Source: Amycolatopsis sp. NBRC 101858
GTDB lineage: Bacteria > Actinomycetota > Actinomycetes > Mycobacteriales > Pseudonocardiaceae
Direction of reading: 5' to 3'
Length of the DNA: 64,000 nucleotides
Assembly (NCBI RefSeq): GCF_030269325.1
Contig: NZ_BSTD01000002.1
Span: 1,240,001 to 1,304,000, forward strand
This document shows positions 42,140 to 56,602 of the stretch, in pieces (position 1 is the first letter of the stretch; every line of letters starts with the position of its first letter). A model generated the notes under the pieces. That model was not told the origin of the DNA. It made no database searches and worked only from the letters and a program-made list of their open reading frames with translations. Position numbers and translations under genes: made by a program.

Positions 42140-42349
42140 TTATTCGGCGTGCTTGGCGGCGAGGCTGCGCGGACGCAGGTCCCGCCAGTTCTCCTCGACG
42201 TAGGCGAGGCAGGCCGCGCGGGTCTCCGGGCCGTGCACGCGGTCCCACCCGTCGGGCAGTTCGGCGAACACGGGCCAGAGGGCGTGCTGGTCTTCGGCGT
42301 TGACGACCACGTGGAAGGTGCCCGTCTCGTCGTCGAAGGGGTTGGTCAC
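42140..42349 (-). CDS. MbtH-family NRPS accessory protein
   Basis: 69 residues with the MbtH hallmarks [19 protein letters not shown] and the closing ENWRDLRP. It binds adenylation domains and supports their folding or activity. The GTG start overlaps the NRPS stop (GTGA), so it is co-translated with the enzyme it serves. Confidence 0.96.
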
Positions 42350-45300
42350 CGATCGCTCCTTTCGTTCGCGAGGTACTTCTCGATCGCCGCGCCGATCCGC
42401 CGCAGCGGCTCGGCTCCGGTCATGGCGTCGTGCCCGGCCGCCACGCCGGTCACGGCGACCGCACCGTCCACATGGGACGTCCACGCCGCGGCGGTGCGGT
42501 TGCCCGCGTCGGCGGCCGCGGCGAAGTGCAGCAGGGTGCCGCGGAAGGTGCGGGGCACGAACTCCTTCTGCAGCTTCAGGTTGTTGCGCCAGGCGGCGAA
42601 GCACCGCTTCAGCTGCTCCGGGGTCAGCTCCGCCAGGGGGTTGGCTTCCCGCGCGAACAGCTCGCGCAGGCCGGCGAAGTCGGGGCCGCGCACGGGTTCC
42701 TCGTCGCCGCGGTAACCGAAGAACCGCAGCACGATCGCCGCGAGCTCCTCGTCGCCGGGCAGGTCGTCGTCGCTGCCGGGGGCGCTGTCGAGGCTCACCA
42801 GCAGGGCCACGTGCTCGCCCTCGTCCTGCAGCCGGCAGGCGATCTCGTGCGCGACCACGCCGCCGAACGACCAGCCCAGCAGGTGGTAGGGCCCGTGCGG
42901 CTGGACCCGGCGGATCTCCGCCAGGTAGTCCGCCGCCATCGCGCCGACGTCGGCGGGCAGCACGGCGTCGTCGACGATCCCGCGGGCCTGCAGGCCGTGC
43001 AGCGGCCGGTCGGCCAGGTGCGCGGCGAGCCCGTGGTAGGACCAGCTGACGCAGCCGGCCGGGTGGACGCAGAACAGCGGTTCGCGGGTGCCTTCCCGGC
43101 GCAGCGGGAGCAGCACGTCGAACGACGTCCCCCCGTCGGCACTCTCGATCCGCCGGGCCAGCCGCGCGGGCGTCGGGTGGTCGAACAGGTCACGGATGCC
43201 GAGCCCGCCGGACAGCCGGTCGCGGACCCGGCTCAGCAGCCGCGTCGCCAGCAGCGAATGACCGCCCAGGGCGAAGAAGTCGTCGTGCAGGCCGACCGCG
43301 GGCACGCCGAGCACGTCGGCGAACGCCGCGCACAGCAGGTCCTCGGCCGGGGTCCGCAGCCGGTCGTGGCCGGCGGTGATCGTGGCCGCCGGCGCGGGCA
43401 GCGCCGAACGGTCGAGCTTCCCGTTGGCGGTCAGCGGGAAGCGCTCGAGCACGACCACCGCGGCGGGGACCATGTAGTCCGGCAGGGTCTCGCCCAGCCG
43501 GGCCCGCACCTGCGCCGGTTCGACCCCGTCACCGGCGACGTAGGCCACGAGCCGCCGGTCGCCCGGGACGTCCTCGCGCACGATCACCGTGGCCCGGCCG
43601 ATCTCCGGAAGCGCCAGGAGCGCGGTTTCGATCTCCCCGAGCTCGATGCGGAAGCCGCGCAGCTTCACCTGGTGGTCGGTCCGGCCGACGTAGTCGAGCT
43701 GCCCGTCGGCGCCCCACCGCACCAGATCGCCGGTGCGGTACATCCGCGTGCCCGGCGCGCCGAACGGGTCGGCGACGAAGCGCTGCGCGGTGAGGCCCGG
43801 GCGGTTCAGGTAGCCCCGCGCGAGCCCGGCGCCGGCGATGTACAGCTCGCCGGGGACGCCGTCCGGCACCGGCCGCAGCCGGGCGTCGAGGACGTAGACC
43901 TGCGTGTTGGCCAGCGGGACGCCGATCGTCGGCGCGCCCGGCCGATCGGGCCCGGCGGTCAGGTCGGCCGCGGTCGACCAGATCGTCGTCTCGGTGGGGC
44001 CGTAGACGTTGGTGACGCCCCGGGTGACCGCGCCGAGCCGGTCGGCCAGCGCGCGGCTGACCGCCTCGCCGCCGATCAGCGCCCGCAGCCCGCCCAGGGT
44101 CTCCGGCGCCGTCTCGGCCAGCTCCTGCCACAGCGTCGGCGTCGCCTGCATGATCGTCGCTCCCGTGTGGACGATCAGCTCGCCGAGCACCGCGGGGTCG
44201 CGGACCTCGTCGGGGGCCGCGACCACCAGCCGCGCCCCGGCGAGCAGGGGCACCAGGAGCTCCAGGTTGGCGATGTCGAACCCGGGCGTGGTGACCGTGA
44301 GGAAGCTGTCGTCCGGGGCGATCCGGGTGCGGGTCACCATGTCGTCCAGCAGGTTCGCCAGGGCGCCGAGCGGGACGACGACGCCCTTGGGGCGGCCGGT
44401 GGACCCCGACGTGTACAGGATGTACGCGGGGTTCTCCGGCCGGGTGACGACACCGTCCGGCGGAGTGGGGTAGGACTCCGCCGGAACGGCGTCGTCGAGC
44501 AGCACCCGCGGCGCGCTGCCCGTCTCGGTGCCCGGGGTGGTGACGACCACCGCGGGGGCCGCGTCTTCGAGCATGAAGGCGACCCGCTCGGCCGGGTAGC
44601 CGGGGTCGATCGGCAGGTACGCGGCGCCGGTCCGCAGCACCGCGAGCACGGCGACGACCAGGTCCGCCGAGCGCGGCAGGACCAGGCCCACCACCGCCTC
44701 CGGCCCGGCGCCGTGCCGGACCAGCACGCGGGCCAGCCCGTTCGCCCGGGCGTCCAGCTCGCGGTAGGTGAGCTCGGTGTCGCCGGCCACCAGCGCGACC
44801 GTGTCCCAGGCCCGCTGGGCGGTCAGCCGCAGCCGGTCGGACAGGGTCGCCGCGGCCAGCTCGCGCGCGGTGTCGTTGCGGGCCACCAGGATCCGGGCGC
44901 GCTCCTCGGCGTCGAGCACGTCGATCGCACCGAGCCGCTTCCCCGGATCGCCGGCCATCGCCCGCAGGACGGTGCTCAGGCGCTCCGCCATCCGCGTCAC
45001 GGTCTCCGCTTCGAACAGCTCGGTGCGGTACTCGACGAACCCGCCGAACCCGCTTTCGTGCTCGGTGAATTCGAACGCCAGGTCGTACCGGGCCGTGCCG
45101 GTGGGCTCCGGCAGCACCTCGGCGTCCACTCCGGACAGTTCGAGGCTCGCCCCGGCGTTGTTGTGCAGCACCAGCAGCACGCCGAACAGCGGGGTCCGCG
45201 CTTGGGAGCGGGCCGGGTTGAGCACGTCGACCAGCCGCTCGAACGGCAGGTCCTGGTGGGCGTAGGCGGTCAGGTCGGCCTGGCGGATCCGGGCCAGCAG

Positions 45301-55499: not shown

Positions 55500-55555
55500 G
55501 CACAACCCCTATTCGTGCGGGAGAGGACCGGCCGGGCGGATCGCCGCGGTCCGGG

Positions 55556-56602
55556 CTAGCGGGCCGGGGGCCGGTGCCGGTCCAGCTCGTGGAAGAAACC
55601 GTCGACCACCGGCAGCTCCCCCGCCGCGGCAGTCTCGTCGTACACGTACTTCGCCACCGCGAGGTCGAGCACCCCGAGGCCGAACGGCGAGAAGATCAGC
55701 GGGCGGCCGGCCGGCGGTTCGAGGCGGCCGGTCAGCACGTCGAACAGCGTGCCGGACAGGAAGCCCCGGTCCCCGGTCAGCTGCTCGGCCAGGTGCGGCG
55801 AGGTGTTCGCCTTGAGGCAGTGGTCGACGTCGTCGACGACGTTGGTGGAGACCAGCACGATCTCCGGGGCGATGTCCCGCAGCGAGATGTTGAGCACCAG
55901 CGGGTCGTGGGAGAACCAGTCGACGTCGGACACGTACGGCTCGGCGGCGACGGTGGCGAACACGACCAGGTCGCTGGCGCGGATCAGGCTCTCCGCGTCG
56001 TCGTGGCCGGTGACCCGCGCGGTCGTGCCGGTGCCTTCGAGGTAGTCGCGGAAGCCGGCGGCCGACCCCGCGTGCAGGTCGTGCACGCCGATCTCGTCGA
56101 ACTCCCAGCCGGTGGCCTGCAGGTAGGTGTGCACGAACCGGGCGATCAGGCCCGTCCCGACGAACCCGACCCGGCGCGGACGGCCGCGGCTCGTGCTCAG
56201 CACCGCCGCGGCGAGTGCGGCCGAGGCGGCCGTGCGCGCGGCGCTGATGATGGAGCTTTCCAGGCAGGCCAAGGGATAGCCGGTGGCCGGGTCGTTGAGG
56301 ATCAGCACCGCCGACGCCCGCGGGATCCCGTTCTTGACGTTGCCCGGGAAGCTGGAAATCCACTTGAGACCGTCGACGCCGTCGTCGCCGCCGAGCGAGG
56401 CCGGCAGCGCGATGATCCGGGAGTCCGGGCGGTCCGGGAACCGCAGGAAGTAGGAGGGCGGGTTGACCGTGTTCCCGGCGCCGTGCAGCCGGTAGGCCGC
56501 CTCGACGAGGTCGACCACCTTTTTCTCGTTGCCGGCCAGTACGGCCGAGACCTGCCGGCCGGAAATGACCGCGAAAGGAGGAATTTCGTTCCGCTCCGGC
56601 AT
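55556..56602 (-). CDS. SbnB-like dehydrogenase completing L-2,3-diaminopropionate synthesis
   Basis: 348 residues of the ornithine cyclodeaminase/mu-crystallin family. The Rossmann loop [12 protein letters not shown] lies near residue 143, and [11 protein letters not shown] near 78 and [15 protein letters not shown] strands match the substrate side. SbnB oxidises N-(2-amino-2-carboxyethyl)-L-glutamate with NAD to L-2,3-diaminopropionate and 2-oxoglutarate. First gene of the operon; ATG at 56602 with GGAGGGAA upstream. Pairing with the SbnA-like gene makes this assignment much firmer than the family alone. Confidence 0.9.

Follow-up and report, generated by a model that had tools for sequence, protein, structure and literature searches.

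Several described assembly lines resemble parts of the system considered here. In legonindolizidine biosynthesis, the type II thioesterase (TEII) LgnA has been shown by experiment to move L-Thr from the adenylation-thiolation (A-T) didomain of LgnB to a T domain of LgnD, and WS9326A biosynthesis is discussed in the same paper as a case in which A-T proteins and TEIIs would serve a condensation-thiolation (C-T) module (PMC8748450; papers are given by PMC number). In the capreomycin and viomycin pathways an A-less module is loaded by the A domain for 2,3-diaminopropionate (Dap) of another module (PMC12400406), and olenamidonin, autucedine and enamidonin are small acylated cyclic peptides with two Dap and one Gly in their backbone (PMC11204786). 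Here we describe a nonribosomal peptide synthetase (NRPS) cluster of Amycolatopsis sp. NBRC 101858 in which module 2 has lost its A domain and is likely served by a separate TEII and A-T didomain. The window analysed is a stretch of 64,000 nucleotides, positions 1240001-1304000 of contig NZ_BSTD01000002.1 within the 11.16-Mb genome, and coordinates below are those of the window.

Taken as a whole, the pathway that we propose, a cryptic lipopeptide cluster making acyl-Dap-X-Dap-Gly with a trans-loaded residue X, is in our judgement probable. The NRPS gene occupies 42346-54486 on the minus strand (4046 aa, start MSQNPSG at 54486); the mechanical open reading frame (ORF) 42346-55503 runs open past this true start, on the upstream side. 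Pfam counts four C, three A, four T and one thioesterase (TE) domain in the NRPS, in the order C1-A1-T1-C2-(A remnant)-T2-C3-A3-T3-C4-A4-T4-TE:

53164-54459, 49984-51336, 48016-49371 and 44890-46215, minus strand: C1 to C4, by C-domain matches
51646-53109, minus strand: A1, code DIWEVTADD, predicted to activate L-Dap
49627-49977, minus strand: module 2 linker of 117 aa with a decayed A-domain stretch, corresponding to about positions 308-394 of intact A domains
49405-49626, minus strand: T2, GGHS motif intact, putative carrier of X
46516-47967, minus strand: A3, code DIWEVTADD, predicted to activate L-Dap
43402-44838, minus strand: A4, code DILQ(L)GVIW, predicted to activate Gly
42346-43122 (start approximate), minus strand: C-terminal TE (Pfam PF00975), predicted to release the product or close a ring
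42140-42349, minus strand: MbtH-like protein, from the ORF and its homologues, family name by eye

The same cluster is carried by a second genome of the genus, G194 (G, C and L are our handles for genomes, contigs and loci), where the compared proteins, the ATP-binding cassette (ABC) ATPase excluded, are 90-99% identical; since it recurs there, the cluster is not a chance occurrence. Neither Pfam nor motif reading detected an epimerisation (E) domain in the NRPS of the window, which agrees with the earlier sequence-only reading of this DNA.

Module 2 has lost its A domain, and a fragment of about 75 residues is kept as a linker. In support of this, 69-76 linker residues align to A4 (E=3e-11), A1 (1e-10) and A3 (1e-8) in a blastp comparison against those three sequences only, and the YRTGD motif of the remnant is decayed. 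The relatives point to the same partial loss: an A-domain stretch matching the remnant persists in five of the six A-less clusters that we compared (this one, G194, G089 C34, G105 C18, G157 C3 and G142 near 228 kb); it is gone in G157. If module 2 were a skipped relic, with T2 and C2/C3 handing the chain on, the product would be acyl-Dap-Dap-Gly. The decay of the A domain is what such a relic would display, but C2 and C3 retain HHxxxDG and T2 retains GGHS, the C-T module is kept in all six clusters, and two 100-residue windows over the linker are 97% and 93% identical between the two Amycolatopsis proteins, which are 93% identical overall. We therefore regard a skipped module as very unlikely.

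The candidate loader of T2 lies at the end of the window and consists of two genes that overlap by four bases:

62657-63475, plus strand: TEII, proposed aminoacyl shuttle to T2 (Pfam PF00975; RifR-type PDB matches)
63472-65742 (the window holds 63472-64000), plus strand: A-T didomain gene, pocket DFWNMSMVA, threonine-like

The TEII carries GHSSG, Asp and His motifs, and the A-T protein begins, by eye, with a C-domain-like stub. With its Ser-Asp-His motifs, this free-standing TEII joins the A-T didomain and the surplus C-T unit of the main NRPS in the layout of the LgnA/LgnB cassette. The sequence-only reading had drawn X from a trans-loaded module, and this is supported, with T2 intact, the module 2 A domain decayed and the TEII and A-T pair accompanying the A-less clusters; the remnant and the probable loader, which lies mostly past the window end, were absent from that account.

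TEII, A-T didomain, SbnA/SbnB and a type II polyketide synthase (PKS) all occur in six of six SbnA/B-headed A-less clusters. In the DNA fetched (19.9 kb for eight of them), TEII was found in none of ten intact clusters, selected as reading Dap, Phe-like, Dap, and these likewise showed no ketosynthase (KS) at 1e-15. Four other loci with SbnA/B and a type II PKS (G029, G214, G193 and G142 near 4.1 Mb) were kept out of that count and checked separately, and TEII was again absent from the DNA fetched (0/4). Note that in G029 (L115) two A domains are partly detected, with modules 1 and 3 unread; module 2 has an A domain. Since PKS loci lacking TEII exist, it is the TEII, and not the PKS, that goes with the A-less module. 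Finally, the top seven genomes for TEII are also the top seven for the A-T didomain (297 genomes of the family searched with each).

Several observations weigh against this assignment. In the seventh of these genomes, G132, the pair sits beside another NRPS, with no SbnA/B seen in 20 kb. SbnA/B together with such a PKS occur with no TEII match at L052/L115, L053, L100 and L102, so the linkage to the PKS says nothing about the loader. Moreover, the cases of co-occurrence are related clusters and not independent events, for eight of the ten intact loci the view was limited to 19.9 kb, and the TEII could be an ordinary editing enzyme. The G132 locus is of interest in itself (L252, G132:C28:55000-74900): its TEII and A-T pair, code DYWNFGMVV, is possibly another trans-loading system.

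The other source for T2 would be a Dap A domain of the NRPS itself, charging the A-less module in trans as in capreomycin assembly. Such loading has been demonstrated for CmnA-A1 and CmnI with L-Dap and an MbtH-like partner (PMC12400406), and an MbtH-like gene follows our NRPS. However, the TEII and A-T pair, present in 6/6 A-less clusters, would then be left without a task, and almost all CmnI homologues are reported to share an extended N-terminal region (PMC12400406), a region not searched for here. We consider loading by a Dap A domain unlikely. From synteny, co-occurrence and the LgnA precedent, the TEII and the A-T didomain are the likely loader of T2.

The genes for the Dap supply stand at the head of the operon:

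55556-56602, minus strand: SbnB-like dehydrogenase, L-Dap supply predicted (TIGR03944 equivalog, 412.6 bits against a cut-off of 326.9)
54504-55505, minus strand: SbnA-like pyridoxal phosphate (PLP)-dependent synthase, L-Dap supply predicted (TIGR03945 equivalog, 379.3 bits against a cut-off of 349.95)

The two are adjacent, precede the NRPS and exceed the curated NCBIfam equivalog cut-offs; the sequence-only reading had noted SbnA/SbnB-like genes in this place. Judging from their families, they would make L-Dap here. That reading had also noticed that modules 1 and 3 share all nine specificity residues, with acidic residues at three pocket positions. By alignment both are indeed DIWEVTADD, with the acidic residues at 278, 330 and 331, and in G194 A1 reads DIWEVTADD and A3 DIWEITADD.

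To these codes we can add their genomic linkage. Among the matches listed for the 297 family genomes, 61 of 79 A1-like A domains lie within 40 kb of an SbnB match, compared to 12 of 143 Thr-type controls; counted by cluster the figures are 37/55 and 12/137 (Fisher p=5.5e-16, a value that, with related clusters, is no probability of independent events). The sample comprised the first 79 A1-like rows among the matches listed, with our cluster and that of G194 included, and left out later A1-like rows, two of them likewise at 50% identity. SbnB positions are those among the matches listed, and the controls are 143 of the listed A-T-didomain matches, taken after the best seven had been dropped. 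In 18 SbnB neighbourhoods (L041-L058), three have NRPSs with DIWEVTADD and one with DVWEVTADD (in L052 the A domain is cut off in this set); SbnA was not seen in two of the 18 (L045, L046). An A-T pair coded DIWQST(A/T)DD is present in 13 of these 18 neighbourhoods and apparently represents a separate, common Dap-type system in the family.

Two results speak against Dap. For 18 of the 79 A1-like domains there is no listed SbnB within 40 kb, and at L260 (G105 contig C17) a dat-family transaminase, of the 2,4-diaminobutyrate (Dab) type and scoring over its cut-off, stands about 11 kb from an A domain with the code DIWEVTADD. The 20 kb fetched for L260 also showed no SbnA/B, and the two observations together suggest Dab there. 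Because the same residues occur near a Dab-type transaminase, the nine-residue code by itself is no proof of Dap, and we rejected an assignment made from the code only. Modules 1 and 3 might then use Dab themselves, and a case in G019, where about 13 kb separate a DIWQVTADD A domain from a dat-family gene that passes its cut-off, would also fit this. In our cluster, however, it is the SbnB and SbnA equivalogs that head the operon, and the sole dat gene over cut-off in this genome sits on another contig (C1), so we give Dab a very small chance. The assignment of Dap hence derives from the SbnA/SbnB linkage and not from the pocket code, and on this linkage Dap at both modules 1 and 3 is highly probable. 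The two Dap units proposed by the sequence-only reading are thereby supported, although the code, by itself, does not say Dap.

For module 4 the pocket obtained by alignment is DILQ-GVIW, with the gap residue read as L by eye. We take DILQ(L)GVIW to be a glycine code; the Gly-type code claimed earlier is thus present in A4.

As for X, the A-T pocket is DFWNVGMVH in four of the six A-less clusters and DFWN(M/I)SMVA in the other two (M in our cluster, I in G194). DFWNVGMVH is presumably a Thr code, and X is predicted to be a Thr-like residue. Against this, our code differs from the Thr code of the relatives at three positions (V->M, G->S, H->A). Next to the loader are two further genes:

61155-62543, minus strand: KamA-like radical S-adenosylmethionine (SAM) protein (CxxxCxxC; TIGR00238, 125.5 bits, below the cut-off of 199.2)
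59899-61158, minus strand: PLP enzyme of the aminotransferase fold (GntC is the best NCBIfam match, but far below cut-off)

The KamA-like protein matched six KamA-type models without reaching the cut-off of any, and it aligns to lysine 2,3-aminomutase over 230 residues (PDB 2a5h, E=2e-21). Both genes lie by the TEII in our cluster and in G194 and, in the DNA fetched, in none of the other four A-less clusters. The pair may alter X. We infer that the altered A-T pocket is linked to the KamA-like/PLP cassette, and the two changes possibly go back to one single event. In all 14 further loci that we looked at (L238-L251, taken from 31 radical SAM matches outside our genome and G194), a KamA-like gene and a PLP gene are again neighbours, with no SbnA/B match in 20 kb.

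The acyl cap would come from a set of discrete genes downstream of the NRPS:

41847-42101, minus strand: discrete acyl carrier protein (ACP), from homologues, name by eye
40612-41850, minus strand: ketosynthase, KS alpha (Pfam; best PDB match 6KXD chain A, E=4.6e-162)
39541-40596, minus strand: chain-length factor (CLF; best PDB match 6KXD chain B, E=1.1e-60)
39146-39544, minus strand: dehydratase (DH)-like protein, from position and homologues only
38661-39149, minus strand: DH-like protein (Pfam PF07977; FabZ models below cut-off)
37915-38664, minus strand: ketoreductase (KR; Pfam adh_short_C2, E=1.7e-64)
37177-37914, minus strand: DsbA/HCCA-isomerase-fold protein, possible polyene isomerase (Pfam PF01323; PDB 3fz5, E=8e-10)

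We take 6KXD to be the ishigamide KS-CLF, Iga11-Iga12. By its predicted genes the PKS is type II and polyene-type: KS, CLF, KR, DH, ACP and an isomerase-like gene are all clustered with the NRPS, as in polyene/cinnamoyl-type systems. A modular PKS was rejected, the genes beside the NRPS being discrete type II genes. A set of KS, KR, DH and ACP genes with an isomerase gene by an NRPS has been used to mine cinnamoyl-peptide clusters (PMC6510318), and the cap is therefore predicted to be a polyene, possibly aromatised. The PKS chain that the sequence-only reading had placed on the N-terminus is therefore supported as an acyl cap and can be refined to the product of a polyene-type type II PKS.

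In the pathway that we propose, SbnA and SbnB would supply L-Dap, while the discrete KS, CLF, ACP, KR and DH, with the isomerase-like protein, would build an ACP-bound polyenoyl chain that may be of the cinnamoyl type. C1 would cap Dap-1 with this acyl chain, A1 and A3 would load L-Dap and A4 would load Gly. After activation of a threonine-like amino acid by the A-T didomain, the neighbouring TEII would pass the residue to T2, in the manner of LgnA. In this genome and its one same-genus relative, the KamA-like radical SAM/PLP pair beside the loader may modify X, and the TE would free acyl-Dap-X-Dap-Gly, linear or cyclised. A more detailed version, polyenoyl-Dap-X-Dap-Gly with a non-proteinogenic X that the KamA-like/PLP pair makes or alters, a re-tuned Thr pocket, hand-over by the TEII and the A fragment as spacer, is tentative and rather doubtful in all its parts together. 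If the proposed pathway is true, the six A-less clusters represent a natural NRPS module turned dependent on a plug-in TEII and A-T pair, and two of the six have apparently swapped the residue via the plug-in alone. This would make them a useful engineering template, and the target would be a short, basic lipopeptide that carries a polyene cap and two Dap.

The window holds other genes, and three of these lie around the cluster:

57700-58494, plus strand: ABC-2 exporter membrane protein (Pfam)
frame 55574-57703, domain from about 56825: exporter ATPase (Pfam)
58834-59643, minus strand: PAS-LuxR regulator (Pfam)

Beside the PKS genes, at 27779-36937, there are three stretches with AAA and LuxR domains (large LAL-type regulators). 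A 1703-aa ORF at 21436-26547 has as its sole Pfam match an APH phosphotransferase stretch near the C-terminus. Genes at 4940-16184 resemble an extracellular contractile injection system (eCIS), with Baseplate_J and Tail_P2_I, a 1114-aa protein that combines an eCIS core domain with Ntox4 at its C-terminus and, on the opposite strand, an AAA/winged-helix ATPase.

The proposed scaffold was also compared with the intact relatives of the cluster and with described compounds. Relatives with an intact module 2 (G088, G292, G195, G089 C16, G022 and G060) read Dap-(E)-Phe-like-Dap-Gly, the E domain being seen by motif in some and deduced in others from a gap of at least about 1.5 kb. Phe, D-Dap, L-Dap and Gly occur together in olenamidonin and its analogues (PMC11204786). 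The intact relatives have the same residue composition, but since the published order differs (PMC11204786), we do not equate them with the enamidonin group. A contig scan keyed on the Phe-like A domain of these relatives covered the best 80 of 205 matches (78 loci), the A-less family not being sampled, and no Streptomyces olivaceus was found among these best 80. In the Streptomyces loci L145 and L147 (partly L146, L148, L149, L151 and L152) the modules read Dap, Phe-like, Gly, Dap, the enamidonin residue set in another order; they belong to S. termitum and S. smaragdinus, and partly to S. bikiniensis, S. yangpuensis and others, with SbnA seen in L145, L147 and L149.

Could our cluster itself make a member of the enamidonin/autucedine/kutzneridine family (kutzneridine is grouped with the enamidonin-type peptides for its N,N-acetonide; PMC12843350)? 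The product would likewise be a four-residue peptide with an equal Dap and Gly count, and the intact relatives have an equal composition. Nevertheless, their order Dap-Phe-Dap-Gly is not colinear with the published one. As marks of an enamidonin-family NRPS we infer, from the products, a Phe A domain and an E domain (for D-Dap); in our NRPS we detected neither a Phe-like A domain nor an E domain. Identity with the enamidonin clusters was thus rejected, and membership of the family is extremely improbable. The group also differs in having Phe as the fourth residue, one D-Dap, a dehydro-beta-alanine enamide chain and another order, and no polyene chain.

The composition of this group does mean that small acylated peptides with two Dap and one Gly have precedents. 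The sequence-only claim that no described compound has this combination was consequently too strong, given the Phe, D-Dap, L-Dap and Gly of the olenamidonin group and the cinnamoyl chain and Dap of the coprisamides (PMC4778507). Of the scaffold acyl-Dap-X-Dap-Gly itself, the two Dap (modules 1 and 3), the Gly of module 4, the acyl cap and the trans-loaded X are supported, and its originality was overstated. In open-licence papers we found no identical compound, and none with two Dap and Gly plus a polyene-type PKS and a trans-loaded residue. Nor did any open-licence PMC paper turn up for the pocket-code strings, or for the combination of a type II PKS and a polyene with an NRPS and Dap, which is weak evidence of absence.

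The WS9326A/skyllamycin/coprisamide group has, as here, type II KS/CLF, KR, DH, ACP and isomerase genes beside the NRPS (PMC6510318), and WS9326A also shares A-T didomains, TEIIs and a C-T module (PMC8748450). The coprisamides, however, are heptapeptides, whereas our NRPS has four modules with two predicted Dap. In some cinnamoyl peptides the terminal TE has been reported to epimerise, which bears on the all-L configuration put forward in the sequence-only reading. Legonindolizidine resembles our system in gene arrangement, with a stand-alone TEII, an A-T didomain (Thr-activating in that pathway) and an A-less C-T unit (LgnA/LgnB/LgnD). In legonindolizidine, however, it is the first T domain that accepts Thr, which is then dehydrated by the C domain that follows, C* (PMC8748450), while here the acceptor would be module 2 and C3 matches the Condensation model at 309.6 bits, about like C2 and C4. 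In capreomycin and viomycin an A domain for L-Dap and an A-less module are found as well (PMC12400406). In staphyloferrin B biosynthesis SbnA and SbnB belong to the same two enzyme families by curated cut-offs; here they are beside an NRPS and not in a siderophore pathway. An SbnA/B-type Dap supply is known from capreomycin and viomycin. The pathway looks like a fresh variation on known antibiotic-type routes and not like new chemistry.

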